From Paradevosia shaoguanensis (lineage in GTDB: Bacteria; Pseudomonadota; Alphaproteobacteria; Rhizobiales; Devosiaceae): a stretch of 64,000 nt of DNA. Shown here one piece after another: positions 20,967 to 47,835 of the stretch. The notes beneath the pieces were generated by a model. It saw nothing but the letters and a program-made list of their open reading frames with translations, did no database searches and had not been told where the DNA came from. Each line of letters opens with the position of its first letter. The first letter of the stretch is position 1. Made by a program: the position numbers and the translations under genes. The stretch spans positions 124,001-188,000 of the forward strand of contig NZ_CP068983.1 of assembly GCF_016801025.1 (NCBI RefSeq). The letters are read 5' to 3'.

Positions 20967-21824
20967 CTAGCCGTTGCGACGCCGCCAGGCAGCGGGCGCT
21001 TCGCCTTCGCGCAGACGGAAGAAGCGGGAGAAATAGGCCGGGTCCCTGAAGCCGGTCTCGAGCGCGATATCCTCCACCGAACGGATGGTAAAAAGCAAGA
21101 GCCGCTTGGCTTCCAGCAGGCGCCGGCTGAGCACCACTTCCTTGGGCGGCATCTTGAGGACCTGGCGGGAGGCCTTGTCGAGTAGGTGCGGCGTGGTGCC
21201 GAGAAGATCGACATATTTTTCCATCGGCCAGCCCTCGCGGAAATGCTCGTCGACCGAGCGACGGAATGCCAGAGCGAGCGCCAGCGCGGGAGACGAGGCG
21301 ATGCTCGGCCGGTCGGCATTGAGGCGGGCTATGTAGGAGAGCGAGACGGCGACGAGGTTGGTCAGGATGTCGTCGTTGCGGACGCCCTGGCGGTATTCTC
21401 GTGCGATCATGGCCAGAGTGTCGGCAAGTCCGGTCCAGGCTGGCGAGTGCGGCTCGCCACCGACGAAGACGGGGCCATCGAGCGCCAGGCTCGTCTGGGC
21501 GGCCAGTTGCTTGAGCATGCCGTCGGCGACGGAGACGACCAGCGCGTCCGTACCCGGCTCGATGGTGAAACCATGGACGACATTGCTGGGGACGAAGCTC
21601 GCAGTCGGCGCCGAAAAGTCCCAGACCTGGTCCTCGATGCGATAGACACCCCGGCCGCTGGTCCAGAAGGTGATCTGCCCCATCTGCGCATGCTTGTGCG
21701 GCAGAACCTTGCCTAAATGTATGTTATTTCTTTCTCTTACGGTTTCAACATGGAGAAATCCCACGTCGAGTGCGCGACTGGGTTCGCCGTAGACAAAGAA
21801 ATCCGGAATATCGACCTGTTTCAT
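20967..21824 (-). CDS. hpaA: AraC-family activator of 4-HPA hydroxylase genes
   Basis: 285-aa regulator. The N-terminal cupin domain (residues about 1-150; LPHKHAQMGQITFWTSGRG) senses the aromatic acid, and the C-terminal AraC helix-turn-helix pair has SVEDIALETGFRDPAYFSRFF. Layout and sequence match the HpaA/PobR group that activates hydroxylases of hydroxylated aromatic acids. It is divergent from hpaBC with about 90 bp between, the classic arrangement. The inducer is likely 4-hydroxyphenylacetate. The chosen ATG starts the cupin domain; the frame stays open 45 codons upstream into the intergenic region. Confidence 0.85.
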   Translation of the reverse strand: MKQVDIPDFFVYGEPSRALDVGFLHVETVRERNNIHLGKVLPHKHAQMGQITFWTSGRGVYRIEDQVWDFSAPTASFVPSNVVHGFTIEPGTDALVVSVADGMLKQLAAQTSLALDGPVFVGGEPHSPAWTGLADTLAMIAREYRQGVRNDDILTNLVAVSLSYIARLNADRPSIASSPALALALAFRRSVDEHFREGWPMEKYVDLLGTTPHLLDKASRQVLKMPPKEVVLSRRLLEAKRLLLFTIRSVEDIALETGFRDPAYFSRFFRLREGEAPAAWRRRNG

Positions 21825-21915
21825 TTCGCCGGAAAAAGTACCAGCGATTTTACTCCTTTGTCCATGCCGTCGCGAAGCGGACGCGCCTATCCTCGGGACA
21901 AAGAGGAGGATCGTG

Positions 21916-23451
21916 ATGCGATCAGAAGATTTCCGCGCGGACAAGTCGCGCCCGTTCACCGGCGCCGAATACCTGGCCAGCCTGAGGGACGACCGCGAGG
22001 TCTATATCAATGGCGAGCGCGTTGCCGACGTCACGGCCCACCCGGCCATGCGCAATTCCGCCCGCTCGCTGGCACGGCTCTACGATGCGCTGCACGACCA
22101 GAACCGGCGCGAGACACTGACCTCGCCGACCGATACCGGCTCGGGTGGCTATACGCACAAATATTTCCGCGTGGCGAAGTCGAGTTCCGAGCTCGTCGCG
22201 CAGCAGGGCGCGATCGCCGAGTGGGCGCGCATGTCCTATGGCTGGATGGGGCGCACCGCCGACTACAAGGCGGCGCTGATGAACACGCTTGGCGCCAATG
22301 CCGACTGGTACGGCCCGTTCAAGGAGAACGCGCAGGCCTGGCACAAGCGTGCCCAGGAAGCGGTGCTCTTCATGAACCACGCCATCGTCAACCCGCCCAT
22401 CGACCGTCACAAGCCGGCCGACCAGGTGAAGGACGTCTTCGTCCACATCACCAAGGAAACCGATGCGGGCATCTATGTGTCGGGCGCGAAGGTGGTGGCG
22501 ACGTCGTCGGCGCTCACGCACTACAATTTCCTGGCGCAGAGCTCGGCCACGGTGACGGAAGACCCGTCGCTTTCGGTGATGTTCATCGTGCCGATGAATG
22601 CACCTGGCATCAAGATGTTCTGCCGCGTCTCCTATGAAGAGACCGCCAATCGCGTGGGGCAGCCTTTCGACTATCCGCTCTCCTCGCGGTTCGACGAGAA
22701 CGACGCCATCCTCGTGCTCGACAATGTCTTCATCCCCTGGGAAGACGTGCTGGTGCTGCGCGATGCGCCGAAAATTCTGTCGTTCCACCCGGCCTCGGGC
22801 TTCATGCACGGCTATTGCTTCCAGGGCTGCACGCGCTTTGCGGTGAAGCTGGACTTCCTGGCCGGGCTCCTGGCCAAAGCGCTGCGCGCGACCGGCGGCG
22901 ATGCATTCCGCGGCAACCAGGCGGCGCTCGGCGAGGTCATTGCTCTCAGGCACATGTTCTGGAGCTTTTCGAACGCCATGGCCTACAATCCGCAGCCATG
23001 GGCCAATGGCGCGGTGCTGCCGAACCTCGAGGCGGCGCTTTCGTACCGCACCTTCATGTCCGAAGCCTATCCGCGCGTGATCGAGACGATCCGCAAGGTC
23101 ATCGCCTCGGGGCTCATCTACCTGCCGTCATCGGCGCGGGACTTCGACAATCCGGAGATCAACCGGTACCTGGCGCAATATGTCCGCGGGTCGAACGACA
23201 TGAGCCATATCGAGCGCATCAAGATCATGAAGCTGCTCTGGGATGCGACGGGCACGGAGTTCGGCGGACGCCATGCGCTCTACGAGCTCAACTATGCCGG
23301 TGCGCCTGAAGAGGTGCGGCTGCAGGTGCTCAAGGGCGCCGAGCGCGGCGGGCGGCTCAAGCAGATGGAGGAACTCGTCGATACCTGCATGAGCGACTAC
23401 GACGAGAACGGCTGGACCGGCGACACCTGGCTGCCGCCCCTGAGCAACTGA
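21916..23451 (+). CDS. hpaB: 4-hydroxyphenylacetate 3-monooxygenase, oxygenase
   Basis: 511-aa large subunit of the two-component flavin hydroxylase that converts 4-hydroxyphenylacetate to 3,4-dihydroxyphenylacetate (homoprotocatechuate) with FADH2 supplied by HpaC. Typical HpaB blocks are present: RVADVTAHPAMRNSARS near residue 35, TGSGGYTHKYF, and the C-terminal LYELNYAGAPE. Length is usual for the family. ATG at 21916 follows AGAGGAGG; a GTG one codon earlier is possible. The flavin reductase gene follows 17 bp downstream. Confidence 0.93.
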   Translation: MRSEDFRADKSRPFTGAEYLASLRDDREVYINGERVADVTAHPAMRNSARSLARLYDALHDQNRRETLTSPTDTGSGGYTHKYFRVAKSSSELVAQQGAIAEWARMSYGWMGRTADYKAALMNTLGANADWYGPFKENAQAWHKRAQEAVLFMNHAIVNPPIDRHKPADQVKDVFVHITKETDAGIYVSGAKVVATSSALTHYNFLAQSSATVTEDPSLSVMFIVPMNAPGIKMFCRVSYEETANRVGQPFDYPLSSRFDENDAILVLDNVFIPWEDVLVLRDAPKILSFHPASGFMHGYCFQGCTRFAVKLDFLAGLLAKALRATGGDAFRGNQAALGEVIALRHMFWSFSNAMAYNPQPWANGAVLPNLEAALSYRTFMSEAYPRVIETIRKVIASGLIYLPSSARDFDNPEINRYLAQYVRGSNDMSHIERIKIMKLLWDATGTEFGGRHALYELNYAGAPEEVRLQVLKGAERGGRLKQMEELVDTCMSDYDENGWTGDTWLPPLSN

Positions 23452-23468: not shown

Positions 23469-23981
23469 ATGCCCGACCTCGTTACCAAGACCGAATTCCG
23501 CAACGCGATGGCGCGGGTCTGCGCGCCCGTCAACATCATCACCACGGACGGCTCTGCCGGCCGTGGCGGGTTCACCGCCACGGCGATGTGCTCGGTGTCG
23601 GACGAGCCGCCTACCCTGCTGGTCTGCATGAACGGACGGTCGGCGCAGTGCGACCTGTTCCTCGCCAACAAGCGGTTCTGCGTCAATGTGCTCACCCACG
23701 AGCACATGCACCTGGCCGGCAAGTTCGCCGGCGGGACGCAGGACATGACGGAGCGCTATGCGGCGGCGCAATGGCTCAAGATGGCGTCAGGCACGCCTGC
23801 GCTGGCCGACGCCATCGTCAATTTCGATTGCGAGATCGAGATGGTGCACCATGTGGGCACGCATAACGTGATGATCGGGCGGGTGACGGGCGTCCGCCAT
23901 CGGCCGGACGGCAACGCCCTGCTCTATGTCGACCGCACCTATGTGCATGTCCCGACCCAGCTTGGCAGCTTCGGCGGCTAG
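23469..23981 (+). CDS. hpaC: 4-HPA monooxygenase flavin reductase component
   Basis: 170-aa NAD(P)H:flavin oxidoreductase of the HpaC type. It starts FRNAMARVCAPVNIITTDG, with the GFTATAMCSVSDEPPTLLVC flavin-binding block and a C-terminal GRVTGVR segment. Supplies reduced flavin to HpaB. The gene has GGAGG upstream and forms a two-gene operon with hpaB. Confidence 0.92.
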   Translation: MPDLVTKTEFRNAMARVCAPVNIITTDGSAGRGGFTATAMCSVSDEPPTLLVCMNGRSAQCDLFLANKRFCVNVLTHEHMHLAGKFAGGTQDMTERYAAAQWLKMASGTPALADAIVNFDCEIEMVHHVGTHNVMIGRVTGVRHRPDGNALLYVDRTYVHVPTQLGSFGG

Positions 23982-24872: not shown

Positions 24873-26318
24873 CTAGTAGCGAGCGCTGCCCAGCGCCTCG
24901 AACGCCGCGGCACTGCGCGAGCGCAGGCCGATAGCGAGAGCGGCGCCGACCAGTGCAGCGATCAGCACGATGGCAGGCAGGAACCAGCCCAGGGTGCCGG
25001 AGGCGCCCGAGAGGTTGCCGAAGTTGATGACGATCTGCGAAATCACGACGAGAAAGGCCAGGCCGGACAGCACCGGCAAGATCCACGCCTTGAGCGGATT
25101 GGCCTCGAGCCCGGCATTGCGCGAAAAGAAGGCCACGACCGCAAAGGACGTCGCCGCCATCAAGACGATGATGCCCAACGTGCCGACATTGGTGAGCCAG
25201 GAAAAGAGGTTGAGCACCGGGTCCTGCCCGGTGACGGCGAAGAGCGTTATCACTGCTACGGCGATGACGGTCTGGACGATCGAGGCGACGTGCGGGCTCT
25301 GGAACTGGCGGTGCGTCACGCCGATCCCCGAGGGCAAGAGGCCTTCGCGGCCGGCGACGTACATGTAGCGGGCGACGCCGTTGTGGAACGCGGTGACGCC
25401 GGCAAAGAGGCTGGTGACGAAGAGAATGCTCATCAACTGGCTCAGCCAGGTGCCGACATAACGGTCGGAGAGCGTGAAAAGGAAGGTGGTCGGGTCTTCG
25501 AGCGCACCGATCTCGCCGACGAGCTTGTCCACGCCCGCACCATTGGCCATGAGCCAGGAGGTGAACATGTAGAAGATGCCGATGAGTAGCACCGAGATAT
25601 AGGTGGCGCGGGGCACCGTGCGGGTCGGCTCGCGGGCTTCCTCGGAATAGATGGTGGTGGCTTCAAAGCCGATGAAGGCGGCAAAGCAGAAGAGGATGCC
25701 GATGGCGGGCGAGCCCTGGAAGAACTGCGCCGGCGTGAACGGCGCGAGGCTGAGGCCGCTGTCGCCGCCCTGCCCGATGATGGCGAAATCGAGGATGAGC
25801 ACCACGAGGTATTCGAGAACCACGAGGACGGTGAGGACCTTGGCCGAGATATCGACGCGGCGGTAGCCCAGCACGGCCACCAGCGCGATGCCGAGATAGC
25901 ACCAAGCCCACCACGGCAGGTTGATGCCCCAGCCGGCCAGAAGCCCGGAGGTGGCAGCGCCGAAGAGGCCGAAGACGCCGATCTGCATGCAATTATAGCT
26001 GACAATGGCGATGATCGCCGCGGCGCCACCGGCCACGCCACCCAGCCCGCGGGTAGTATAGGCGTAGAAGGCGCCGGCATTGCGCACGTGGCGCGACATG
26101 GCGACATAGCCGACCGCGAAGAGCAGCAGCAGCGCAGTGACGAGAATGAAGGTGGCGGGGATGCCCGCCCCGTTGCCCAGCAACATGCTGAGCGGCACGC
26201 CGCCGGCTACCGCGGTCAGCGGCGCAGCGGCGGAAACGACGAGAAAGGTGACGGCCGCAACGCCAAGGCTGTTCTTGCGCAGCTGATTGGCCTGGCCGTC
26301 GGAAGTTGTTGTGGTCAA
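24873..26318 (-). CDS. APC-family amino acid/amine permease
   Basis: 481-aa inner-membrane permease of the amino acid-polyamine-organocation superfamily with about 12 to 14 hydrophobic segments. Conserved marks are an N-terminal SAAAPLTAVAGGVP, the helix-6 region FAAFIGFEATTIYSEEAREP, and GREGLLPSGIG. The start is a TTG at 26318 with GGAGGGAG upstream; no ATG fits. Its promoter carries both regulatory motifs found at the 37.4 and 50.6 kb promoters. With the aromatic amino acid decarboxylase nearby it may import tyrosine, DOPA or an arylethylamine (inference). Confidence 0.88.
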   Translation of the reverse strand: MTTTTSDGQANQLRKNSLGVAAVTFLVVSAAAPLTAVAGGVPLSMLLGNGAGIPATFILVTALLLLFAVGYVAMSRHVRNAGAFYAYTTRGLGGVAGGAAAIIAIVSYNCMQIGVFGLFGAATSGLLAGWGINLPWWAWCYLGIALVAVLGYRRVDISAKVLTVLVVLEYLVVLILDFAIIGQGGDSGLSLAPFTPAQFFQGSPAIGILFCFAAFIGFEATTIYSEEAREPTRTVPRATYISVLLIGIFYMFTSWLMANGAGVDKLVGEIGALEDPTTFLFTLSDRYVGTWLSQLMSILFVTSLFAGVTAFHNGVARYMYVAGREGLLPSGIGVTHRQFQSPHVASIVQTVIAVAVITLFAVTGQDPVLNLFSWLTNVGTLGIIVLMAATSFAVVAFFSRNAGLEANPLKAWILPVLSGLAFLVVISQIVINFGNLSGASGTLGWFLPAIVLIAALVGAALAIGLRSRSAAAFEALGSARY

Positions 26319-26414: not shown

Positions 26415-26440
26415 TGTCAACTTATTTCACGTGTTAAGTA
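26415..26440 (-). promoter_or_regulatory. HpaR-like operator with -35, permease promoter (S1)
   Basis: Minus strand TACTTAAC-ACGTGAA-ATAAG-TTGACA. 23 of 26 bases match the site at 37372 and 22 of 26 match that at 50606. The dyad TTAAC/GTGAA lies immediately upstream of a consensus -35. Lies between hpaR and the permease gene. Confidence 0.65.
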
Positions 26441-26472: not shown

Positions 26473-26901
26473 CTATTCCTGGCTTTTGATGAGGGCTTCG
26501 AGCATGTCGAGCAGCTTTTCGAGCTCTTCCGGCCCGTACTTGCGTTCGATCTCGCGATAGATGGCGCGGCGCTCGGGGGCGAGTTCCTCGATCATGGTCA
26601 TCCCGGCGGGGGCGATGGCGAGCTGCACGCGGCGGCCGTCGTCCTCGAACTTTCCGCGGGTGATGAGGCTGCGATCTTCCAGCGCCTTGATGATGCGCGT
26701 GAGGCTGGGCGCCAGAATCGAGGCGCGCTCGGCGACCTCGGTGGCATCGAGCGGGCTGTTTTCCCCCAGGACGCGCAGAACGCGCCATTGCTGCTCGGTG
26801 ACGTCGTGCCGGGCCAGCATGGGCCGGAAGTTGAGCATTACCGCCTCGCGAGCGCGCAGCAGCGACATGGGCAGCGATCTGCGAGTATTTCTTGGCAGCA
26901 C
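26473..26901 (-). CDS. hpaR: MarR-family repressor of homoprotocatechuate operon
   Basis: 142-aa winged-helix regulator of the HpaR/HpcR type: TRRSLPMSLLRAREAVMLNFRPML, then VTEQQWRVLRVL, and the DNA-recognition helix region SILAPSLTRIIKALEDRSLI. HpaR represses the meta-pathway genes and is released by the aromatic acid. The start is placed at a GTG (26901) preceded by GGAGG at 5 bp; this keeps the conserved NTRRSLPM, which the downstream ATG would lose. Divergent from hpaF with a TTAAC-N2-GTTAA site between them. Confidence 0.9.
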   Translation of the reverse strand: MLPRNTRRSLPMSLLRAREAVMLNFRPMLARHDVTEQQWRVLRVLGENSPLDATEVAERASILAPSLTRIIKALEDRSLITRGKFEDDGRRVQLAIAPAGMTMIEELAPERRAIYREIERKYGPEELEKLLDMLEALIKSQE

Positions 26902-27000
26902 GACGGCCTCCGACAAGTCTCTGGTATGGCAGGCCATGCTCTGCCAATAGCGGCTATATTCCGTTTTTCCCGCCGATGGCAAACGGGTCGCGCAAACGGC

Positions 27001-27036
27001 TTGACACGGACCGTAATTTATTTAACACGTTAAGTA
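27001..27036 (+). promoter_or_regulatory. hpaF operon promoter with HpaR operator (S2)
   Basis: Plus-strand TTGACA at 27001-27006, followed by the dyad TTAACACGTTAA (27022-27033) over the -10 region. Read on the minus strand, TACTTAACGTGTTAAATAAATT matches 20 of 22 bases of the site at 50606. It lies in the hpaR/hpaF divergent gap, so it can repress the catabolic operon and hpaR itself. The second GGTTC motif of the other three promoters is absent here. Confidence 0.72.
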
Positions 27037-27068: not shown

Positions 27069-27455
27069 ATGCCGCATTTTTCGATCGAATATTCTGCCAA
27101 TCTCGACGAGCGCGTCGACATGCAGGCGCTTTGCGCGCTGATTTCGCTCACAGTGCTGGAGACCGGGCTCTTCGAGGTCGGGGCGGTGCGCGTGCGGGCT
27201 TTCCGGGCCGAGGCCTACAGCATCGCCGACGCCCTGCCCGAGAACGGCTTCATCGACATGTCCTTCCGTATCGGCCAGGGCCGGACGGATGAAGAGAAGC
27301 GACGAACCGGCGAGGCGATCTTCAAGGCAGTGGGCGACTATCTCGCGCCGCTCTTTGACACCCCCCATTTCGCCCTTTCGCTCGAGATCCGGGAAATTCA
27401 TCCGGACCTGAGCTGGAAGAAGAATGCCATCCACCCCCGCCTGCGCGGCAAGTAA
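27069..27455 (+). CDS. hpaF: 5-carboxymethyl-2-hydroxymuconate delta-isomerase
   Basis: 128-aa tautomerase-fold enzyme. PHFSIEYSANL at the N-terminus provides the Pro1 that acts as general base after Met removal, and EIREIHPDLSWKKNAIHPRL is at the C-terminus, as in the HpaF/CHMI family. Acts after HpaE in the homoprotocatechuate pathway. ATG at 27069 with GGAGGGAG upstream. First gene of the operon running to hpaI. Confidence 0.92.
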   Translation: MPHFSIEYSANLDERVDMQALCALISLTVLETGLFEVGAVRVRAFRAEAYSIADALPENGFIDMSFRIGQGRTDEEKRRTGEAIFKAVGDYLAPLFDTPHFALSLEIREIHPDLSWKKNAIHPRLRGK

Positions 27456-27469: not shown

Positions 27470-28987
<1,518 letters not shown>

Positions 28988-29075: not shown

Positions 29076-30056
29076 ATGTCTCTACCCAAACCCGTTCTCT
29101 ACCCGCCGTTCAACATCGTGCGCCTCAGCCACGTGGAACTGGCCGTTACCGATCTTGCCAAATCCCGCGCCTTCTATGTCGATACGCTCGGCCTGCAGGT
29201 GACTGACGAGACCAAGGACACGATCTACCTGCGTGCGCTCGAGGAGCGCGGTCACCATTGCATCGTGCTGCGCAAGTGCGAGCGCGCCGAAGCGCGCGAC
29301 CTGGGTTTCAAGGTGTTCGACGACGAGGACCTCGACAAGGCGGCGCATTTCTTCAAGGGCAAGGGCCTGCCGGTGGAATGGGTCGAGCGCCCCTACCAGA
29401 GCCGCACGTTCCGCACGCATGACCCGCACGGCATTCCGCTCGAATTCTATTCGAAGATGGAGCGCCTGCCGCCGATCCACCAGAAATACGCGCTCTACAA
29501 AGGGGTGAAGCCCCTCCGCATCGACCACTTCAACTGCTTCTCGCCCAATGTCGACGAGTCCGTTGCTTTCTATAACGAAATCGGCTTCCGGGTGACCGAA
29601 TATACCGAGGACGCCGAGAGCGGGCGGCTGTGGGCGGCGTGGACGCATCGCAAGGGCGGCGTGCACGATATCGCCTTCACCAATGGCCGCGGCCCGCGCC
29701 TGCATCACGTCGCGTTCTGGGTGCCGACCCCGCTCAACATCATCGACCTGCTCGACCTCATGGCCACGACCGGCTGGGTCGCCAATATCGAGCGCGGGCC
29801 GGGGCGGCACGGCATTTCCAACGCCTTCTTCCTTTACGTCCGCGACCCGGATAATCACCGCATCGAGATCTATTGCTCGGACTACCAGACGGTGGACCCG
29901 GACCTCGAACCGATCCGCTGGGACCTCAAGGACCCGCAGCGGCAGACCCTGTGGGGCGCACCCGCGCCGCGCTCGTGGTTCGAGGAAGGGAGCTCCTTCG
30001 CCGATGCGAAGGTGCGCGATCCGGAGCTGGCAGCCCAGCCCATCATCGCACCCTGA
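29076..30056 (+). CDS. hpaD: 3,4-dihydroxyphenylacetate 2,3-dioxygenase (VOC type)
   Basis: 326-aa extradiol ring-cleavage dioxygenase made of two vicinal-oxygen-chelate modules. Metal ligands read as H151 (RIDHFN), H211 (LHHVAF) and E264 (HRIEIY), with a second-sphere His at 197 (VHD). This is the Brevibacterium/Arthrobacter-type enzyme, not the LigB-type HpaD of E. coli, although the other pathway genes are E. coli-like in order and type. Cleaves homoprotocatechuate to CHMS. AGGAGG precedes the ATG. Confidence 0.94.
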   Translation: MSLPKPVLYPPFNIVRLSHVELAVTDLAKSRAFYVDTLGLQVTDETKDTIYLRALEERGHHCIVLRKCERAEARDLGFKVFDDEDLDKAAHFFKGKGLPVEWVERPYQSRTFRTHDPHGIPLEFYSKMERLPPIHQKYALYKGVKPLRIDHFNCFSPNVDESVAFYNEIGFRVTEYTEDAESGRLWAAWTHRKGGVHDIAFTNGRGPRLHHVAFWVPTPLNIIDLLDLMATTGWVANIERGPGRHGISNAFFLYVRDPDNHRIEIYCSDYQTVDPDLEPIRWDLKDPQRQTLWGAPAPRSWFEEGSSFADAKVRDPELAAQPIIAP

Positions 30057-30077
30057 TCCCCGCAACCGGAGGCTTTC

Positions 30078-31508
30078 ATGAACAACGACGATTTCCGCTC
30101 CTGGTCCACCAAGGCCGCGCAATGGGGCGTGGATTATCGCGAAGGCCTCCGAGAGCGACCGGTGCGCGCGCCGCTGGTGCCCGGCAAGGTGCTCAACGCC
30201 CTGCCCTCGGTTCCGCCCGAAAAGGCCGAGCCGATGGAGAAGATCTTCGCCGATTTCGAAAATCTCATCGTGCCGGGAATGACGCATTGGCAGCATCCCC
30301 GGTTCTTCGCCTATTTCCCCGCCAGCGCCGCGCCGCCCTCGGTGATCGCCGAGTACCTGGTGGCGGCAATGGGCGCGCAGTGCATGCTGTGGCAGACCTC
30401 GCCGGCGGCGACAGAACTCGAAATCCGCATGATCGACTGGCTGCGCCAGGCAATCGGACTGCCGCAGGGATTTGGCGGCGTCATCCAGGATTCGGCCTCG
30501 TCCTCGACGCTGGCTGCGGTGCTGACCATGCGCGAGCGCGCGCTCGAATGGCATGGCAATGCCAAGGGCCTCGCCGCCAACCCGCAATTGCGGGTCTATA
30601 GCTCCAGCCTCGTCCATACCTCGATCGACCGGGCGATCTGGATTTCGGGTATCGGGCAGGAAAACCTCGTCCGCATTCCGGCCGTAGGCGCGCTGCAGTC
30701 GATGGACCCGGCGGCGCTTGAAGCAGCGATCGTGGCCGACAAAGCTGCCGGCTTCCTGCCGGCGGGCATCGTGGCCTGTGTGGGCTCGACCAGCGTGGGC
30801 TCGACCGACAATATCCGCGCCGTCTGCGAGATCGCCAAGCGGCACGGGCTTTATGTCCATGTCGATGCGGCATGGGCCGGTTCGGCGATGATCTGCCCGG
30901 AATTCCGGCACTTCTGGGACGGGATCGAGATGGCGGATTCGGTCGTCTTCAACCCGCATAAATGGCTCTCCGTGCAGTTCGACTGCTCGGCGCATTTCGT
31001 GCGCAATCCCGAAGACCTGGTGCGCACGCTCGCCATCAAGCCGGAATATCTCAAGACGCACGGCCATGACGGCGTGGTCAATTTCTCGGAATGGTCGGTG
31101 CAGCTCGGCCGCCGGTTCCGGGCGCTGAAACTCTGGTTCGTGCTGCGCGCGGAAGGGCTCGAGGGCCTGCGCACCATGATCCGCAATCACGTCAAATGGG
31201 CCGAGAAGCTGGCCCGGCGCCTCAAGGCGGAGCCGGATTTCGAGATCGCCAGCGAGCCGATGCTGTCGCTGTTCTCGTTCCGCTACACCCCGCGCGGCGC
31301 AGCCGACCTCGACGCGCTCAATCTCGCGCTGGTCAACGCCATCAACGATGACGGACGCATCTATCTCACGCAGAGCACTTTCGAGGGCAAGCTCGTCATC
31401 CGCTTCCAGGCCGGCCATTCGGACATGACCGAGGCCGATGCCGATGTCGCGTTCGACACCATTGTCGAGATCGCCCGTTCCCTCGCAATCGAGAAGAAGA
31501 CCGCATGA
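30078..31508 (+). CDS. Aromatic-L-amino-acid decarboxylase (AADC type)
   Basis: 476-aa PLP enzyme of group II decarboxylases, very like animal and plant AADCs. The PLP Lys is K295 in FNPHKWL, the cofactor Asp is in HVDAAWAG (D263), and VHTS (H180) stacks on PLP. Tyr324 in the flexible loop (KPEYLKT) and H180 are the residues typical of true decarboxylases rather than aldehyde synthases, so the product should be an amine (tyramine, dopamine or similar). It sits between hpaD and the semialdehyde dehydrogenase with a 4-bp overlap, so it is cotranscribed with the meta pathway, an unusual position. Confidence 0.92.
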   Translation: MNNDDFRSWSTKAAQWGVDYREGLRERPVRAPLVPGKVLNALPSVPPEKAEPMEKIFADFENLIVPGMTHWQHPRFFAYFPASAAPPSVIAEYLVAAMGAQCMLWQTSPAATELEIRMIDWLRQAIGLPQGFGGVIQDSASSSTLAAVLTMRERALEWHGNAKGLAANPQLRVYSSSLVHTSIDRAIWISGIGQENLVRIPAVGALQSMDPAALEAAIVADKAAGFLPAGIVACVGSTSVGSTDNIRAVCEIAKRHGLYVHVDAAWAGSAMICPEFRHFWDGIEMADSVVFNPHKWLSVQFDCSAHFVRNPEDLVRTLAIKPEYLKTHGHDGVVNFSEWSVQLGRRFRALKLWFVLRAEGLEGLRTMIRNHVKWAEKLARRLKAEPDFEIASEPMLSLFSFRYTPRGAADLDALNLALVNAINDDGRIYLTQSTFEGKLVIRFQAGHSDMTEADADVAFDTIVEIARSLAIEKKTA

Positions 31509-32962
31509 AACTCAAGGATTCGACGCTTCTCCGGCAGGCCGCCTATGTCGCGGGCCGCTGGATCGAGGCCAAGGCGCCCGCTGTCGTCGCCGTGACCAAC
31601 CCCGCCACCGGCGAGGTGATCGGCAACGTGCCCAGGCTCGGCGCCGCTGAAACGCGCGAGGCCATCGAGGCGGCGCGAGTCGCGCAGGTGGAATGGGCCG
31701 GGCGGACTGCCAAGGAGCGCTCGGTGATCCTGCGGCGCTGGTTCGAGCTGATGATGGCCAACCAGGACGACCTGGGGCTTATTCTCACGCTCGAACAGGG
31801 CAAGCCGCTGGCCGAGGCCAAGGGCGAGATCGCCTATGGCGCCAGCTTCATCGAATGGTTCGCCGAGGAGGCTCGGCGGGTCTATGGCGACATCATTCCG
31901 GGCCATCAGCGCGACAAGCGCATCATGGTGCTCAAGCAGCCGATCGGCGTGGTTGGGGCTATCACGCCCTGGAATTTTCCCAACGCGATGATCACGCGCA
32001 AGGCGGGGCCGGCACTGGCGGCGGGTTGCGCCATGGTGCTCAAGCCTGCTTCGCAGACGCCGTTTTCGGCCATTGCGCTGGCGGTGCTGGCCGAGCGCGC
32101 GGGTGTCCCGGCGGGGCTCTTCAGCGTGCTCACCGGCTCGGCTTCCGAGATCGGGGCGGAGATGACGGCCAACCCCACCGTCCGCAAGATCACGTTCACC
32201 GGCTCGACCGAGATCGGAGCGCAGCTCTTTGCGCAGAGCGCGCCGACTATCAAGAAGCTCGGGCTGGAACTGGGTGGCAATGCGCCCTTCATCGTCTTCG
32301 ATGACGCCGATCTCGATGCGGCGGTCGAAGGTGCGCTGATCGCCAAGTTCCGCAACAATGGCCAGACCTGCGTCTGCGCCAACCGCATCTATGTGCAGGA
32401 GGGCGTCTATGACGCCTTCGCCGAAAAGCTCGCGACGGCCGTGGCAAAGCTCAAGATCGGCAATGGTCTCGATGATGGCGTGGTGCTCGGTCCCCTCATC
32501 GACGACAAGGCCGTTGCCAAGGTCGAGGAGCATATCGCCGACGCGTTGGGCAAGGGCGCGCAGGTGAGCCTTGGCGGCAAGCGCCATGCGCTGGGCGGCA
32601 CGTTTTTCGAGACCACGATCCTCACCGGCGTGACGCCCGAGATGGCGGTGGCCCGCGAGGAGACGTTCGGCCCCCTCGCCCCGCTTTTCGCCTTCAAGGA
32701 CGAAGCGGATGTGATCGCGCAGGCCAACGACACGGAATTCGGGCTCGCCTCCTATTTCTACGCGCGCGATCTCGCCCGTGTCTGGCGCGTGGCCGAGGCG
32801 CTCGAATACGGCATGGTCGGGGTCAATACCGGCCTCATCTCCACTGCCGAAGCGCCGTTCGGCGGCATCAAGTCCTCGGGCCTGGGCCGGGAAGGCTCGA
32901 AGTACGGCATCGAGGAGTTCACCGAGATCAAATATGTCTGCCTCGGCGGCATAGCGGCCTAA
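31505..32962 (+). CDS. gabD: Succinate-semialdehyde dehydrogenase
   Basis: 485-aa NAD(P)-dependent aldehyde dehydrogenase of the GabD group. It shows TLEQGKPLAEAKGEI, ITPWNFPNAMITRK, catalytic Glu in LELGGNAP and catalytic Cys in NGQTCVCANR. It starts with ATGA overlapping the decarboxylase stop. In this operon it would oxidise the succinic semialdehyde released by HpaI, passing carbon to succinate. Action on an arylacetaldehyde is also possible but less likely from sequence. Confidence 0.9.
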   Translation: MKLKDSTLLRQAAYVAGRWIEAKAPAVVAVTNPATGEVIGNVPRLGAAETREAIEAARVAQVEWAGRTAKERSVILRRWFELMMANQDDLGLILTLEQGKPLAEAKGEIAYGASFIEWFAEEARRVYGDIIPGHQRDKRIMVLKQPIGVVGAITPWNFPNAMITRKAGPALAAGCAMVLKPASQTPFSAIALAVLAERAGVPAGLFSVLTGSASEIGAEMTANPTVRKITFTGSTEIGAQLFAQSAPTIKKLGLELGGNAPFIVFDDADLDAAVEGALIAKFRNNGQTCVCANRIYVQEGVYDAFAEKLATAVAKLKIGNGLDDGVVLGPLIDDKAVAKVEEHIADALGKGAQVSLGGKRHALGGTFFETTILTGVTPEMAVAREETFGPLAPLFAFKDEADVIAQANDTEFGLASYFYARDLARVWRVAEALEYGMVGVNTGLISTAEAPFGGIKSSGLGREGSKYGIEEFTEIKYVCLGGIAA

Positions 32963-32974
32963 GGAACAAGAACA

Positions 32975-33847
32975 ATGAGCAAATACGGACGCCTCGCCAC
33001 CGTCACGGCCGCCGGCAAGACCCGGTATGGCGCCATCACCGATGCCGGCTTCGTAGACTTGACGCGCACCGAGTGGCCAAGCCTGCGCGAAGTGATCGAG
33101 GCCGGGGTGCTGCGGCAGCTCGTGGACGAGGCAGCGGGCAAACCGGCGGATTTCGCCGAGGGCGAATTCACCTATGCCATTCCGGTGCCATCGCCCGAAA
33201 AGATCATCTGCGTGGGGGTCAACTACCCGGACCGCAACGAGGAATACAAGGACGGCCAGGCCGCGCCCTCCAATCCCTCGCTGTTCCCGCGCTTTGCGCG
33301 CTCGTTCGTCGGGCACGACGTGCCGCTGACGCGCCCCACGGTTTCGCCACAGCTCGACTACGAGGGCGAGGTGGTGCTGGTGATCGGCAAGAGCGGGCGG
33401 CACATTTCGGAGGCCGCCGCGCTCGACCATGTCGCGGCGCTGACGCTTTGCGATGAAGGCACCGTGCGCGACTGGGTGCGACACGCCAAGTTCAACGTGA
33501 CGCAGGGCAAGAATTTCGACGGCACCGGCTCGATCGGCCCGTGGCTCGTCCCCTATGTCTCGGAAGACCAGATCGCCGATATCCGGCTCACCACGCGCGT
33601 CAACGGCGAGATCCGCCAGGACGATCGGACCAGCCGCATGATCTTCGGCTTCCGCAAGCTCATCAATTACATCTCGACCTTCGCCACGCTCGTGCCCGGC
33701 GACGTGATCGTGACCGGCACGCCGACCGGTGCCGGTGCACGGTTCGACCCGCCGATCTGGCTCAAGCCGGGCGACACGATCGAGGTCGAGGCAGAAGGGA
33801 TCGGCACGCTGCGGAATGGCGTGGTCGACGAAGGAGTATCCGCATGA
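32975..33847 (+). CDS. hpaG: FAH-family isomerase/decarboxylase
   Basis: 290-aa fumarylacetoacetate-hydrolase-fold protein. The metal-binding YEGEVVLVIG and GPWLVP blocks and the C-terminal TGTPTGAGARF are typical. In the homoprotocatechuate pathway it would act as 5-oxopent-3-ene-1,2,5-tricarboxylate decarboxylase. It has one FAH domain, whereas E. coli HpaG has two fused ones; with HpaF separate, a single domain is enough. It overlaps hpaH (ATGATGA). Confidence 0.85.
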   Translation: MSKYGRLATVTAAGKTRYGAITDAGFVDLTRTEWPSLREVIEAGVLRQLVDEAAGKPADFAEGEFTYAIPVPSPEKIICVGVNYPDRNEEYKDGQAAPSNPSLFPRFARSFVGHDVPLTRPTVSPQLDYEGEVVLVIGKSGRHISEAAALDHVAALTLCDEGTVRDWVRHAKFNVTQGKNFDGTGSIGPWLVPYVSEDQIADIRLTTRVNGEIRQDDRTSRMIFGFRKLINYISTFATLVPGDVIVTGTPTGAGARFDPPIWLKPGDTIEVEAEGIGTLRNGVVDEGVSA

Positions 33848-34647
33848 TGACCCCGCAAGAGGTCGAAGACGCCGCCGCGCGGCTTTTCGAGGCTGAACGC
33901 ACCCGCACGCAGGTACGCATCCTGAGCCTGGATTATCCGCAGGCGACGATGGACGACGCCTATGCCGTGCAGGCAGCCCTCGTACGCCGCAAGATCGCGG
34001 CTGGACGCAAGGCCAGGGGCTGGAAGATCGGGCTCACGTCCAAGGCAATGCAATATGCGCTCAACATCAACGTGCCGGATTCGGGCATCCTGCTCGACGA
34101 CATGTTCTTCCCGGACAGCGCCACCATTCCGGCCGACCGCTTCATCCAGCCGCGCGTGGAAGCCGAGATCGCCTTCGTCATGAAGTCGGACCTCAAGGGG
34201 CCGGACGTCAACATCTTCGACGTGCTCAACGCCACCGACTTCATCACCCCGGCCATCGAAATCCTCGATACGCGCATCCAGCGCGTGGACCCGGAGACCA
34301 AGAAGGTGCGGACCTTCTTCGATACCATCGCGGACAATGCCGCCAATGCCGGCATCATCACCGGTGGCCGCCCCGTGCGTCCGCTCGATGCCGACATGCG
34401 CTGGATCGGCGCGATCCTGCTGCGCAATGGCGAGATCGAGGAGACGGGCCTGGGTGCGGGCGTGCTCAACCATCCGGCCGCAGGCATTGCCTGGCTGGCG
34501 AACCGGCTGGCGCAGTATGGCTCTTCCATTTCAGCCGGTGACGTGGTGCTTTCGGGCTCATTCATCCGACCGGTCGAGGCCCGGCACGGCGACACCATCG
34601 TCGCCGATTTCGGCCCCTACGGCACGGTCAGCGCCTATTTCGCCTGA
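33844..34647 (+). CDS. hpaH: 2-oxo-hept-4-ene-1,7-dioate hydratase
   Basis: 267-aa hydratase of the HpaH/MhpD family. [16 protein letters not shown] near residue 55, the metal-site [15 protein letters not shown] near residue 100 and EILDTRIQ are conserved. Adds water to 2-oxohept-4-ene-1,7-dioate before aldol cleavage. The start at 33844 overlaps the upstream stop; the open frame reaches further 5' only as antiparallel noise. Confidence 0.92.
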
Positions 34648-34658: not shown

Positions 34659-35456
34659 ATGCCTGCTCCCCTTAACAAGTTCAAAGCCGCCATCGCCCAT
34701 GGCGACCGCCAGATCGGCCTCTGGCTGGGCATGGCCAATGCCTATGCCGCCGAACTGTGCGCGGGGGCGGGTTTCGACTGGGTGGTGGTCGATGGCGAGC
34801 ATGCGCCCAACACCCTGCCCGTGATGGCAGCCCAGTTGCAGGCCATCGGTGACAAGACCCATCCCGTGGTGCGCGCGCCGATCGGGGAAACCTGGATCAT
34901 CAAGCAGCTTCTCGATATCGGGGCGCAGACCGTGCTCGTGCCGATGGTCGAGACTGCCGAGCAGGCGCAGCAACTGGTGCGTGCCATGAACTACCCGCCC
35001 AAGGGCGTGCGCGGCGTCGGCGCGGCCATGGCCCGCGCCTCGGCCTTCAACCGTATTCCCGACTATTTGACGACGGCCAACGAGCAGATGTGCCTGCTGG
35101 TGCAGCTCGAAAGCCGGGCGGCGATGGCGAACCTCGAGGCTATTGCTGCGGTCGAGGGCGTGGACGGCGTCTTCATCGGACCATCGGACCTGGCAGCGGA
35201 TATGGGCTTTCTTGGCAGGCCGGGAGCGCCGGAGGTGCAGGCGGTGGTCGAGGACGGGCTGGCCCGCATCATCAAGGCGGGGAAGCCGGCCGGCATACTC
35301 ACCGCCGACAACGCGCTGGCGCAGCGTTATCTCGATCTTGGCGCGAGCTTCGTGGCCGTGGGCACCGATGTGACGCTCTTCTCGCAGGCGACGAGCGCGC
35401 TTGCGGCGAAGTTCAAGAGCGTGCCGGCACCGGCCAAGGGCGCCAGCGGCTATTGA
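34659..35456 (+). CDS. hpaI: 4-hydroxy-2-oxoheptanedioate aldolase
   Basis: 265-aa class II pyruvate aldolase of the HpcH/HpaI family, producing pyruvate and succinic semialdehyde. The catalytic His is H48 (VDGEHAPN), with the conserved Arg R72 and metal ligands E151 (QLES) and D177 (GPSDL). Last gene of the hpa operon. Its stop abuts the stop of the convergent permease gene with no base between, so transcription terminators must lie within coding DNA or be Rho-dependent. Confidence 0.93.
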
Positions 35457-37217
35457 TCAGGGCGGCCAGACCAGCATCAGCGCAGGAACGGCCGTCAGCA
35501 CCACGAGGATCGATAACGGCAGGCCAAGCCGCCAATAGTCGCCGAAGCGATAGCCGCCCGGACCCATGACCAGTGTATTGCACTGGTGCCCGATGGGCGT
35601 GAGGAAATCGCACCCTGCCCCGATGGCTACGGCCATCAGGAACGGCTCCGGCCGCAGGCCGAGGCCACCGGCAAAGGTGGCGGCGATGGGCGCCATCACC
35701 AGCACGGTTGCCGCGTTGTTGAGGAAAGGCGTCACCGCCATGGCCACGACGAGGATCAGCGCCAGCGCGCCATAAGGCGGCAGCACCGAGGCGACGCCGG
35801 ATAGCCATGTGCCGATGAGCGCCGTCGCGCCTGTGGTCTGCAGCGATTGGCTGACGGGGATGAGCGCGGCAAGCATCACCAGGATAGAGGCATCAAGGCG
35901 CGAATAGACTTCGCGCAGCGGCAGGGCGCCAGTGATGACCATCATCAGGGCCGCCGTGAAGAAGGCCACAGGCACCGTGACCGCGCCCACGGCTGTTGCC
36001 GCCATCGCCGCGAGCAGGATGACGATGGGGGCGATGCCGTTGCGGAAGCTGCCGAGGCGCAGGCCGCGCTCGATGAGCGGCAGGCAGCCCCATTCCTGGA
36101 GCAGTTCGGGCAGCGTGCCGACAGGGCCACGCAGCAGGATCACGTCGCCATCCTCGAAGCGGATGGAGCCGAGACGCTGGGTGAAGCGGGTTTCGCGGCG
36201 GCTGATCGCCAGCAGGTTGACCCCGCTCATGTCGAACAACAGCAATTCCTTGGCCGTGCTGCCGATAAGTCGAGAATTGACGCCGACCACGGCCTCGACC
36301 GTTTCGGTGCGTGCCTCATCCTGGATGCTTTCCTGGCGGCTATGCGACAGCGTGAGGCCGCCGCGGGCGACTGCCTTGTCCAGCGCTTCCGGCTCGCCTT
36401 CGAGGATGAGGATATCGCCCTGGCGCAGCACGGCGTCGGGAAACGGCGTACGACGGCGGCCGTTGGTATCGAGGAGACTCGTCACCATCAGCCGGCCGCC
36501 GCCGAGCTTCTGGAGATCGCCGACGGTCTTGTCGATCGAGGATGAGCCCTCGGGGACGCGGGCTTCGGTGGTGTAGTTCTTGATCGCCACCGCCTCCTGG
36601 ATGGAGGCGTTCTCGCGCCGGCGCTCGGGCAACAGGCGATAGCAGAGCACGAGGAAGATGACGCCAACCACCGCCAACAGCGCGCCGACGGGCGTGAAAT
36701 CGAACATCGTGAAGCTCTCGCCGGTGAGTTCGACGCGCAGGCGAGAGACGATGATATTGGGCGAGGTGCCGATCTGGGTCATCAGGCCGCCCAGGAGCGA
36801 GCCGAACGACATCGGCATCAGGAACATGGAGGGCGAGACGCCGGAGCGCGTGGCCATCTGCAGCGCGATCGGCATCATGATAGCCAGCGCGCCGATATTC
36901 TTGATGAAGGCAGAGAGCATCGTGACCGTGAGGACGAGCAGAATCAATTGCGAGCGCGGCCGCGAAAGGTTGGGCGCGAGGCGGTTGATGGCCACCTCCA
37001 TGACGCCGGAACGGGCAACGGCCGCGCTCACCACCAGCGCGCTGGCGACGATGATGACGATATCGTCCGAAAAGCCCGAAAACGCCTCGCCGACCGGCAC
37101 GATGCCGACGGCTACCGAGATGACCAGGGCCCCGGCCGCCACCAGGTCGTAGCGGATTCGTCCCCATACGAACGCAATCATCATCAGTGCGATGACTACG
37201 AACGACAACACCTGCAT
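35457..37217 (-). CDS. SLC13/DASS-type permease with RCK_C domains
   Basis: 586-aa inner-membrane protein. Two blocks of hydrophobic segments (about residues 1-200 and 395-586) flank a central soluble region with two TrkA-C (RCK_C) domains, a layout seen in bacterial SLC13-like proteins. TQIGTSPNIIVSR in the first half and FLTPIGHQCNTLVMGPG near the end are the paired substrate/sodium motifs. Likely a sodium-driven importer of an anion or organic acid. The start is uncertain: ATG 37217 begins at the first membrane helix, while a GTG three codons earlier or longer forms up to 37355 are open. Confidence 0.83.
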   Translation of the reverse strand: MQVLSFVVIALMMIAFVWGRIRYDLVAAGALVISVAVGIVPVGEAFSGFSDDIVIIVASALVVSAAVARSGVMEVAINRLAPNLSRPRSQLILLVLTVTMLSAFIKNIGALAIMMPIALQMATRSGVSPSMFLMPMSFGSLLGGLMTQIGTSPNIIVSRLRVELTGESFTMFDFTPVGALLAVVGVIFLVLCYRLLPERRRENASIQEAVAIKNYTTEARVPEGSSSIDKTVGDLQKLGGGRLMVTSLLDTNGRRRTPFPDAVLRQGDILILEGEPEALDKAVARGGLTLSHSRQESIQDEARTETVEAVVGVNSRLIGSTAKELLLFDMSGVNLLAISRRETRFTQRLGSIRFEDGDVILLRGPVGTLPELLQEWGCLPLIERGLRLGSFRNGIAPIVILLAAMAATAVGAVTVPVAFFTAALMMVITGALPLREVYSRLDASILVMLAALIPVSQSLQTTGATALIGTWLSGVASVLPPYGALALILVVAMAVTPFLNNAATVLVMAPIAATFAGGLGLRPEPFLMAVAIGAGCDFLTPIGHQCNTLVMGPGGYRFGDYWRLGLPLSILVVLTAVPALMLVWPP

Positions 37218-37371
37218 GGACGTCACGAAGCGGGGACTCCCAGGTAACTCAAGGACTTGCTCTAGATCAGGCGAACGCGCTCGGCCGCGCTTCGTTGCAC
37301 GGACGGTATTCGGGCGGGCTACGCGCCGCAATCCCCAACGAGGAATAAGCGCCATATTGGGGCTGCGCAGT

Positions 37372-37397
37372 TACTTAACACGTGAACTATATTGACA
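37372..37397 (+). promoter_or_regulatory. HpaR-like operator with -35, amidohydrolase promoter (S3)
   Basis: TACTTAAC-ACGTGAA-CTATA-TTGACA. Matches S1 at 23 of 26 and S4 at 22 of 26 positions. The dyad centre at 37380.5 is 63.5 bp from the centre of the downstream GGTTC repeat, exactly the same spacing as at 50.6 kb. It lies in the 256-bp divergent gap between the SLC13 and amidohydrolase genes. Confidence 0.65.
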
Positions 37398-37473: not shown

Positions 37474-39120
37474 ATGGCGGCAGCCGAGCTGATCCTGACG
37501 AACGGGCGTTTCTATACCGTCGACCGCGCCCGCCCCTGGGTGGAGGCCGTCGGCATCGCCAATGGGCGCATCGTGGCGCTCGGTTCGGAGAGCGAAGTTC
37601 GGTCTGCGCAGCCGGGCGCCAGGATCATCGACCTGGGCGGGCGGATGGCGATGCCGGGGATCGTGGACGTGCACAACCATGTCCTGATGGGCGGCACCTC
37701 CGACCTTTTCGAGTTGCGCTTTTCCGGCGATGCAACGGTTGCGGAAATCTGTGCGCTCGTGCGCGCCGCAGCCGAGAAGGCAGCGCCGGGCCAGTGGATC
37801 ATGGGCGCGCAATGGGGAGCAGACGCCATTGCCGAACTCAATACCACAGAGGCGCTCGCGCAGCTCGATGCGGCGGCGCTGGGGCATCCCGTCTGCCTGC
37901 GTGACGAGACGGCCCATAATCGGTGGGTGAACTCGGAGGCCATGCGTCTCGCAGGGATCGACGAGGCTTCGGCTGATCCGGAAATGGGCTCGTTCGGGCG
38001 CGATCCCAAAACCGGCAAGCTCACCGGCATGATGATCGAATCTGCGGCCGGCATCGTCGAGCGGGTGGCAGCGGAACAGTTCACCGAGGAAATGGGGCGT
38101 GCGGCCGCGGCGCAGGCGATCAAGACGCTCAATTCCTTCGGCGTGACAGCCTTTCTCGAAGCGGCCTCGATGCAGTCGACGCTCTCGGCGCTTCACAGCC
38201 TCGACCAGCGCGGGGAGCTCACCGCCTGGGCGGTCGGCGCCATGCCGGCGATGGAGCCGAACTTCATGTTCGGGATCGCGGGCGACGAACTGTTTGCCCT
38301 GCGCGAAAACTATCGCTCGGCGCATGTGCGGCCGGATTATGTGAAGATCTTCCTCGATGGCGTGCCGGGCGCGAAGACCGCGGCATTTCACGATGCCTAT
38401 CTCGAAGACCCGATCCATGGCTGCTGCTTCCGCGGCGCGACCATGGTGACCTATCCCGAGCTTATCCGCTGGCTGGGCAAGTGCGAGGCCCAGAGCCTTT
38501 CGGTCAAGATCCACTGCGCGGGCGATGCCGCCGTGACGCAGGCGCTCGATGCGATCGACGTGGTGCGCAGCTTCAACGGCCCGACCGGGCTCATCCACCA
38601 CATCGCCCATGCCAGCTATATCGCACCGGACGATATTGCCCGTTTCGCCGAACTCGGCGTCGCCGCCGATCTCTCGCCGATGATCTGGTTTCCGACCACG
38701 TTCCTCGAAGGGCACAAGGAAGCAATGGGCACCGAGCGCGCCGAGCGCTTCTGGCCCAATGCGGACCTGCTCAACGCGGGCGCCCTGCTCGCGGGCGGTT
38801 CGGACTGGCCGGTGATCCCGAACCCGGATCCGTGGTCGGGCATAGAAGGCCTCGTCACGCGCCAGAACCCTTCGGGCGCCTTCCCGGGTGTGTCGCTCTG
38901 GGCCGAGCAGGCGTTGGACCTGGCGACCGCCGTCGAGGTCTTCACGCTCAATTCGGCCAAGGCGATCGGGCTCGACAAGGACATAGGCTCGCTAGCGGTC
39001 GGCAAGTCCGCCGATATCATCGTGCTCAGCCAGAACATCTTCGATGTGCCGGCTGATGCCATTGCCGACACCCAGGTGCTCACCACCTATTTCGAGGGCC
39101 GCGAGGTGTATTCGCGATGA
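37474..39120 (+). CDS. Amidohydrolase family 3 protein (YtcJ-like)
   Basis: 548-aa metal-dependent hydrolase. The first metal motif is HxH at H67/H69 (VDVHNHV); [23 protein letters not shown] and LIHHIAH follow, and GSDWPV near residue 450 supplies the catalytic Asp. Substrates of this family are amides, cyclic amides or formamides and cannot be read from sequence. GGGAGGGG precedes the ATG. It overlaps the COG0523 GTPase gene by 4 bp, and an HAAT transporter follows, so the unit probably imports and hydrolyses one amide-type compound. Confidence 0.85.
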
Positions 39121-47821: not shown

Positions 47822-47835
47822 GGGGATCGCTTTCT

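Follow-up and report, generated by a model that had tools for sequence, protein, structure and literature searches.

We analysed a stretch of 64,000 nucleotides from Paradevosia shaoguanensis (contig NZ_CP068983.1, positions 124,001 to 188,000; hereafter the window), in which a gene of the aromatic L-amino acid decarboxylase type (AADC) lies inside an hpa operon for the breakdown of homoprotocatechuate (3,4-dihydroxyphenylacetate). We consider it probable that this gene encodes a true decarboxylase, which would feed HpaR-controlled ring cleavage of homoprotocatechuate from amino acids or amines resembling 3,4-dihydroxyphenylalanine (DOPA). The gene had been singled out in an earlier note on this DNA. 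That finding stands and the arrangement is conserved; a coherent mechanism can be predicted in which each step has a candidate gene. Gene identities, operon layout, conserved linkage, conserved boxes and catalytic residues are read directly from the sequences.

The AADC protein matches PF00282 almost from end to end (residues 35-403; E 3.7e-99; 332 bits against a cut-off of 27) and is the sole match to this family found in the 4.63-Mb genome. Its nearest solved relatives by sequence are DOPA or aromatic amino acid decarboxylases, namely 7xin (394 bits) and the pig-type enzyme 1js3 (339 bits). Aromatic amino acid decarboxylases are marked by a pyridoxal phosphate (PLP) lysine, a catalytic histidine and a loop tyrosine. 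Alignment places K295, H180 and Y324 at the positions of pig K303, H192 and Y332, as the earlier note had claimed. Together with T238 and D263, these residues are kept in all 33 linked copies, window included (linkage is defined below). The observation that the window gene is predicted to encode a PLP decarboxylase of the DOPA decarboxylase type is thus confirmed.

The gene order hpaF-hpaE-hpaD-AADC-SSADH-hpaG-hpaH-hpaI runs on one strand from 27069 to 35456 (SSADH: succinate-semialdehyde dehydrogenase). AADC starts 21 nt past the end of hpaD (30056), with GGAGG ahead of its ATG, and its stop overlaps the start of SSADH in a common ATGA (31505-31508). Family matches of the three genes (TIGR02295, PF00282 and NF008415) bear out the described position between hpaD and SSADH with a 4-bp overlap. 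The cluster, running in one direction, is accompanied by HpaR; the D, E, H, I and R proteins score above their NCBIfam cut-offs, G scores below, and F was identified by homology, its 71% homologue in R. leguminosarum being annotated as 5-carboxymethyl-2-hydroxymuconate Delta-isomerase.

The conservation of this arrangement was assayed on loci from three sources: 71 from named genome contigs, 20 chosen stretches that were extended (from an even draw of 385 genomes of the class and from 61 relatives, own genome included), and 18 chosen plasmid records among 40 listed of 409 matching. With the window this gave 110 loci. Six were dropped (L002, L007, L062 and L066, shorter than 9 kb; L059, with its match cut short; L159, at 39% identity, below the 40% rule), and 104 were compared. 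Close relatives and Rhizobiaceae are over-represented in this set, in which L140 and L152 come from one plasmid and L029 and L129 carry an identical protein. Locus surroundings were searched with the window's proteins, at identity thresholds that we set, and a locus was called linked when at least two hpa genes, or a homologue of the class III aminotransferase AT3 described below, lay within 12 kb of AADC. Under this rule, L043 (adjoining an hpaI homologue) and L132 (adjoining an hpaR homologue) were scored unlinked. The window itself was labelled by hand as having both hpa genes and AT3, its AT3 being 15 kb off.

Thirty-three of the 104 loci were linked: 18 by both hpa genes and AT3, 11 by hpa genes alone and 4 by AT3 alone. 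In the 29 hpa-linked loci, which include the window and span several genera, AADC is usually placed between hpaD and hpaG or SSADH. Of the queried genes, the one nearest upstream is an hpa or SSADH gene on the strand of AADC, no more than 163 bp away, in 28 of them; the same holds downstream in 27. Carriers include R. leguminosarum 9B, S. fredii NGR234, Rhizobium sp. NXC24, S. sojae, E. canadensis and E. adhaerens, as well as Stappia sp. BW2, Ruegeria sp. TM1040 and THAF33, and Phaeobacter porticola. AADC is therefore not rare in alphaproteobacterial hpa clusters, as judged from 29 of 104 loci in a set biased to close relatives. The earlier note, which knew of no standard hpa cluster with such a gene, has to be corrected on this point; the neighbourhood search that it proposed found the linkage conserved rather than absent. 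Reduced clusters were also observed in three Rhodobacterales loci (L039, L040 and L130), where AADC adjoins an hpaI homologue with an hpaR-type gene near; hpaF lies just upstream of AADC in L039 and L040, and no hpaD or hpaE was recognised near AADC in any of the three.

The even draw of 385 genomes gave a similar picture. HpaD was found at E <= 1e-30 in 14 genomes, and at 68% identity or more in 7. Six of these seven also have AADC at 50% identity or more, against a background of 37 of the 385 genomes with AADC at 47% identity or more (counted by hand). The enrichment has a P value of 3.5e-6, ignoring relatedness.

Several observations weigh against a fixed association of the two genes. HpaD and AADC are less than 2 kb apart in only two of these six genomes (G000 and G331) and lie on different contigs in the other four, and the seventh genome (G361, of the same order as the window) has HpaD at 87% identity without a close AADC. 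Moreover, 71 of the 104 loci do not satisfy the 12-kb rule for linkage, some Mesorhizobium copies at 70-73% identity among them, so that loss of linkage or a different function is possible. In a quick tree of 83 rows, from which near copies were taken out by hand, the linked or unlinked label needs at least 10 changes, of which well-supported branches alone force 5, indicating that linkage was gained or lost several times.

Control by HpaR is suggested by a palindrome in the gap between hpaR and hpaF, TATTTAACACGTTAAGTA. It contains TTAA-N4-TTAA, the HpaR half-site pattern given for Y. pseudotuberculosis and E. coli W in the available part of PMC7180172. When up to 3 mismatches were allowed, four palindromic places were hit in the window; the number expected from shuffled versions of it is 0.00. 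A slightly wider pattern, allowed up to 2 mismatches over the 4.63-Mb genome, returned the same four places only, all in the window, and the reversed pattern returned 0. Five sites were found in the sister species (G385), four of which lie where those of the window do. Six rhizobial plasmid records held 14 sites: 5 between the APC permease and IclR genes, 4 before hpaF, 2 before a stand-alone Shinella AADC, 1 between two regulator genes by hpaBC in R. leguminosarum, 1 by hpaR and 1 outside the stretch examined; the control pattern had one match each in 2 of the 6 records. Across the compared loci, a site with at most 1 mismatch occurs in 15 of 33 linked loci versus 3 of 71 unlinked ones. HpaR is the presumptive protein binding the four boxes. 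The window box search found no such box at hpaBC or at the neighbouring AraC-type gene; hpaBC without a box, next to a probable AraC-type gene, fits a separately controlled entry of 4-hydroxyphenylacetate (4-HPA).

The case for the boxes has its weak points. The search pattern was derived from the window's own sites, and both TTAA half-sites are present only at 27019, the other three places combining one TTAA with a TTCA or TGAA partner. No site with at most 1 mismatch was found in 18 of the 33 linked loci. Among genomes with an AADC-hpa cluster, G331 lacks any site, G389 has 8 sites against 2 for the control with none before hpaF, and G390 and G401 have 2 sites each against 5 and 4 for the control; one site of each of these last two sits between hpaR and hpaF.

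A decarboxylase acting on DOPA would produce an amine, which has to be converted into the acid before ring cleavage. No copper amine oxidase (PF01179) was matched in the whole genome, which extends what had been said of the window. The earlier note left the amine-to-aldehyde step to candidate aminotransferases; it is still a candidate assignment, and it now falls on a specific, conserved gene, AT3, under the same kind of site as the hpa operon. The two best PDB chains for AT3 are 6s54 ("aspartate aminotransferase family protein") and 5lh9 ("omega transaminase"). AT3 belongs to a minus-strand cassette (IclR-UPF0261-HAD-AT3) divergent from the aldehyde dehydrogenase gene ALDH2. Among the 32 linked relatives, 21 have AT3 no more than 12 kb from AADC; 17 of these also carry hpa genes and 4 do not. 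Whole or partial, the cassette adjoins AADC and hpa genes or lies within about 7 kb of them in relatives; it is whole in L012, L023, L060 and L149, lacks UPF0261 in L038, and is reduced to IclR and the aminotransferase in L144 and L145. L036, L135, L150 and L158 have the aminotransferase together with AADC, and no hpa gene was detected there in the stretch examined; therefore AT3 is tied to the decarboxylase independently of ring cleavage. The UPF0261 (Tm-1-like ATP-binding) and HAD proteins (47836-49748) accompany the aminotransferase in many loci.

For the following step, the adjacent SSADH was considered as arylacetaldehyde dehydrogenase and rejected: it scores above the cut-off of the succinate-semialdehyde model, and the pathway ends in succinic semialdehyde. 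ALDH2 is the better candidate. Three points speak against these assignments. AT3 and ALDH2 of the window lie 15-20 kb from AADC, outside its operon. ALDH2 scores under the cut-off of all 25 NCBIfam models among the matches listed, the top scores including PuuC at 531. Finally, flavin amine oxidase (PF01593) matches 7 loci of the genome, 5 short and 2 over much of the model, none of them in the window, which leaves a flavin-type enzyme as a possible alternative for the amine step.

Altogether, we infer substrates, reaction order and transport as follows. A DOPA-like amino acid would enter, perhaps through the APC permease; L-DOPA is the most likely one, and L-tyrosine is possible where HpaBC is present. 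AADC would convert DOPA to dopamine, AT3 would convert dopamine to 3,4-dihydroxyphenylacetaldehyde, and ALDH2 would oxidise the latter to homoprotocatechuate. HpaD would then open the ring, and HpaE, F, G, H and I together with SSADH would lead to pyruvate and succinate. HpaR would govern these units through the four copies of one palindrome.

This route resembles that of the earlier note (uptake of tyrosine or DOPA, decarboxylation, amine-to-acid conversion and ring cleavage), and the HpaBC, HpaD and APC permease genes named there are indeed nearby, HpaC being assigned by position and homology. The conserved linkage, the regulator-like sites and the candidate genes support the route as a whole; its starting compound shifts from tyrosine towards DOPA. 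A homologue of HpaB at E <= 1e-30 is absent from four genomes with an AADC-hpa cluster (G389, G390, G401 and G331). Because such carriers could not easily turn a monophenol into a catechol, their likelier input is DOPA or dopamine. This argument for a catecholic substrate comes from these four genomes only, and on it we favour DOPA over tyrosine. HpaB is present at 91-100% identity in the genus of the window (G000, G385) and in several rhizobia, where it could add tyrosine, tyramine or 4-HPA as inputs. The idea that relatives and the sister species are without HpaBC was rejected, since the sister species encodes an HpaB of 99% identity about 20 kb from AADC, and hpaBC occurs in other relatives. 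It adjoins ALDH2 in R. leguminosarum and lies within the cluster in L153, L154 and L161. Between the window and G385 (L142, L173), HpaB is 99% identical and AADC 93%; hpaBC is about 20 kb from AADC in G385 versus about 6 kb in the window. The hpaBC genes may have been separately acquired or exchanged.

It is rather unlikely, although worth considering, that AADC is catabolic with a different natural substrate, such as the beta-hydroxylated 3,4-dihydroxyphenylserine, tyrosine or a relative of tryptophan. Many relatives add a kinase of the APH family and a phospholyase-like class III enzyme, as expected for beta-hydroxyamines, and AADC has Ala instead of Thr at the position of pig T82 (mapped through the 1js3 alignment), which we take to be a substrate-pocket position. 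However, the window genome keeps AADC without such a phospholyase at E <= 1e-80, the product from tryptophan is no precursor of homoprotocatechuate by established chemistry, and the best solved relative is named DOPA decarboxylase.

A shorter pathway would result if AADC were an aromatic aldehyde synthase, converting DOPA to 3,4-dihydroxyphenylacetaldehyde in one step, by combined decarboxylation and oxidative deamination, and leaving AT3 for another substrate. Aldehyde synthases are marked by a change of the loop Tyr to Phe (plant type) or of the catalytic His to Asn (insect type), and the plant-type change is indeed present in 18 of the 71 unlinked homologues. These are ten copies from Mesorhizobium, one from a further Hyphomicrobiales genome, three from Bradyrhizobium, one from Kiloniellaceae, one from G022 and two from Rokubacteria (L003, L004, L005, L006, L008, L015, L020, L034, L042, L044, L032, L009, L013, L019, L035, L056, L072 and L132), and by the plant rule they are candidate aldehyde synthases. 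In the window, as in all 33 linked copies, both Y324 and H180, the decarboxylase residues, are kept, and the synthase was rejected for AADC on these residues; moreover, such a synthase would leave no need for an aminotransferase under a site of this kind. We regard this explanation as improbable. The Tyr-Phe difference between linked and unlinked copies has a Fisher P value of 6e-4, ignoring relatedness, and related rows weaken the statistics. Tyr and Phe states both occur among near relatives in Mesorhizobium and Kiloniellaceae. The loop-Phe copy of G022 (L132) adjoins an hpaR-type gene; therefore the border between linked and unlinked copies is not sharp. Retention of Tyr in linked copies fits transaminase-bearing clusters that need the amine.

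Least probable of all is that the amines are made for another purpose, be it pH balance, signalling or disposal of toxic DOPA, and that the gene is in the hpa operon by chance or as a passenger. In favour of this, 71 of 104 loci do not reach the linkage rule, and aromatic amino acid decarboxylases have a role in the pH balance of some other bacteria (available part of PMC12607914); against it, the same hpaD-hpaG/SSADH position recurs in several genera, the box is shared, and AADC accompanies close HpaD in 6 of 7 sampled genomes.

Features of the window belonging to, or surrounding, the proposed route from DOPA-like compounds to ring cleavage (ORF, open reading frame; CHMS, 5-carboxymethyl-2-hydroxymuconate semialdehyde).
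Feature	Position	Strand	Basis or remark
AADC, PLP-dependent aromatic amino acid decarboxylase type, 476 aa, in hpa operon	30078..31508	+	PF00282, 7xin, H180/T238/D263/K295/Y324
hpaF, 5-carboxymethyl-2-hydroxymuconate isomerase type	27069..27455	+	start chosen from sequence; ORF, position and homology, no own family search
hpaE, CHMS dehydrogenase	27470..28987	+	TIGR02299 772 bits, cut-off 638
hpaD, VOC-type 3,4-dihydroxyphenylacetate 2,3-dioxygenase	29076..30056	+	PF00903; TIGR02295 430 bits, cut-off 321
SSADH, overlaps AADC by 4 bp	31505..32962	+	NF008415 869 bits, cut-off 828
hpaG-like isomerase/decarboxylase, FAA hydrolase family	32975..33847	+	PF01557; TIGR02303 163 bits, under its 276 cut-off
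hpaH hydratase	33841..34647	+	TIGR02312 431 bits, cut-off 351
hpaI aldolase	34659..35456	+	TIGR02311 383 bits, cut-off 369
hpaR, MarR-family regulator	26473..26982	-	TIGR02337 162 bits, cut-off 121, match from residue 36
HpaR-type box (18 bp) ahead of APC permease	26423..26440		same place in sister species
HpaR-type box between hpaR and hpaF (operon with AADC)	27019..27036		same place in sister species
HpaR-type box between SLC13-type transporter and amidohydrolase genes	37372..37389		same place in sister species
HpaR-type box between IclR/AT3 cassette and ALDH2	50606..50623		same place in sister species
AT3, class III aminotransferase, candidate amine-to-aldehyde enzyme	46472..47839	-	PF00202; NF005683 742 bits, cut-off 575
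HAD-family hydrolase of AT3 cassette	47836..48492	-	PF00702
UPF0261 / Tm-1-like ATP-binding protein of AT3 cassette	48489..49748	-	PF06792, PF23189
IclR-family regulator of AT3 cassette	49745..50605	-	PF01614, PF09339
ALDH2, aldehyde dehydrogenase, candidate arylacetaldehyde dehydrogenase	50731..52209	+	PF00171; nearest PDB 6b4r KauB
Second class III aminotransferase (PRK07046 type), downstream of ALDH2	52233..53591	+	NF005453 621 bits, cut-off 425 (ORF 52011-53591)
APC-family amino acid/amine permease	24873..26318	-	PF13520
hpaB-like monooxygenase	21913..23451	+	PF11794/PF03241; TIGR02310 764 bits, under its 885 cut-off
hpaC-like flavin reductase	23469..23981	+	position and homology, no own family search
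AraC-type regulator gene (probable; our label) next to hpaBC	20967..21959	-	homology, no own family search
CitMHS/SLC13-type transporter, under HpaR-type box	35457..37355	-	PF03600
Amidohydrolase (Amidohydro_3), under HpaR-type box	37474..39120	+	PF07969
CobW-type gene overlapping amidohydrolase gene	39117-40136		PF02492

Some of the listed genes call for comment. The real start of hpaR is probably further inside the ORF. The TIGR02310 score of the hpaB-like protein does not certify the 4-HPA specificity of HpaB. In R. leguminosarum, a 75% homologue of hpaC, annotated as flavin reductase, adjoins HpaB, and the 55% homologue of the probable AraC-type gene is a helix-turn-helix gene adjoining hpaBC. 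Homologues of the APC permease (69-75% identity) adjoin the cassette in L149, L150, L155, L156, L158 and L160-L164. The transporter and the divergent amidohydrolase-CobW pair (35457-40136) could perhaps serve uptake and hydrolysis of N-acylated substrates. The second class III aminotransferase has 5ykr, a "probable aminotransferase", as its nearest PDB entry. An SSADH gene within the hpa operon is found in R. leguminosarum 9B and P. porticola as well as in the window.

The cluster is extended in several relatives. A kinase of the APH family and a class III protein adjoin the aminotransferase in rhizobial clusters and in Ruegeria sp. THAF33; the class III protein of R. leguminosarum has as nearest PDB entries 5g4i, a phospholyase, and 6tor, an ethanolamine-phosphate phospho-lyase. 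The pair was observed at positions 5041-7340 of L149 and also in L060, L150, L153-L158 and L160-L164, and it suggests entry of beta-hydroxyamines by phosphorylation and elimination. No such phospholyase was found in the window genome at E <= 1e-80; the enzyme is therefore not part of the window's own system. No paper combining octopamine with phospholyase was found in open-licence full texts. To our knowledge, no kinase-phospholyase route for aromatic amines has been described.

A further unit of the window (55172-59268) comprises genes for an AraC-type regulator, an aldehyde dehydrogenase and a GMC oxidoreductase. In R. leguminosarum, two regulator genes with a box between them, a homologous aldehyde dehydrogenase gene and a GMC gene lie next to hpaBC. 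This unit might serve the entry of aryl alcohols. Taking these extensions together, we tentatively propose, as a possibility that is less likely than not, a widespread alphaproteobacterial island in which several catecholamine-like or phenylethanoid inputs would converge on homoprotocatechuate within one HpaR regulon: DOPA-type compounds via decarboxylase and transaminase, octopamine or noradrenaline types via kinase and phospholyase (in rhizobia and some roseobacters), and aryl alcohols perhaps via GMC and aldehyde dehydrogenase.

If the decarboxylase route is correct, soil, symbiotic and marine bacteria would grow on DOPA-like compounds by decarboxylating them first, and an enzyme usually discussed as a neurotransmitter maker or an acid-stress tool would have a catabolic role. 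Legume symbionts (R. leguminosarum 9B, S. fredii NGR234 and S. sojae) carry near-complete clusters on large plasmids, and some plants release DOPA; thus, the system could bear on survival near such plants. The analysis also offers function hypotheses for the UPF0261 and HAD proteins that accompany the system, and defines in the window genome a small, well-bounded set of four candidate regulator sites.

Among the matches listed for exact terms in the open-licence literature, judged by title or opening of the abstract, no paper described a decarboxylase gene in an hpa operon. Decarboxylase activity has been reported in P. putida DOT-T1E, with no hpa genes in the available part of that report (PMC3918161). 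AADC shares family, catalytic residues and a near full-length alignment with the decarboxylases 7xin and 1js3, but differs from them in the context of its gene, which is catabolic ring cleavage, and in having Ala rather than Thr at pocket position 82. Like the tdc operons of lactic acid bacteria, as presented in part of PMC12607914, the window pairs a permease gene with a bacterial gene for decarboxylation of aromatic amino acids. In contrast, the tdc operons are described there as serving acid resistance and amine exchange, with an enzyme of about 620 aa, and none of their four listed genes is for ring cleavage.

Going by the available part of PMC7180172, the hpa operons of E. coli W and Y. 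pseudotuberculosis share with the window an HpaR-type regulator, TTAA-N4-TTAA ahead of the operon and the same names of ring-cleavage genes. However, the Y. pseudotuberculosis operon given there, hpaG1G2EDFHIXBC, lists no such decarboxylase, and hpaBC of the window lies outside the box-bearing units. The hpa operon of A. baumannii TH was called the only reported one with an SSADH gene in the parts consulted of PMC12718150. The window thus provides a further SSADH-bearing version, with the difference that those parts mention no aromatic amino acid decarboxylase.

Titles cited in other papers indicate that pseudomonads break down tyramine and dopamine via homoprotocatechuate; Arcos et al. 2010 describe, by its title, a 3,4-dihydroxyphenylacetic acid catabolon of P. 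putida U for these two amines (cited in PMC12718150 and PMC13098254). The window system would resemble this catabolon, as its title presents it, in leading aromatic amines to 3,4-dihydroxyphenylacetate and on to degradation. The P. putida U system reportedly starts from the amine with an enzyme of the amine oxidase type, whereas the window has a decarboxylase in the hpa operon and an aminotransferase as candidate for the amine step. Altogether, known ring cleavage and known enzyme families appear here in a combination and under a control that we did not find described, and the system is best viewed as a variant of the 3,4-dihydroxyphenylacetate pathway.

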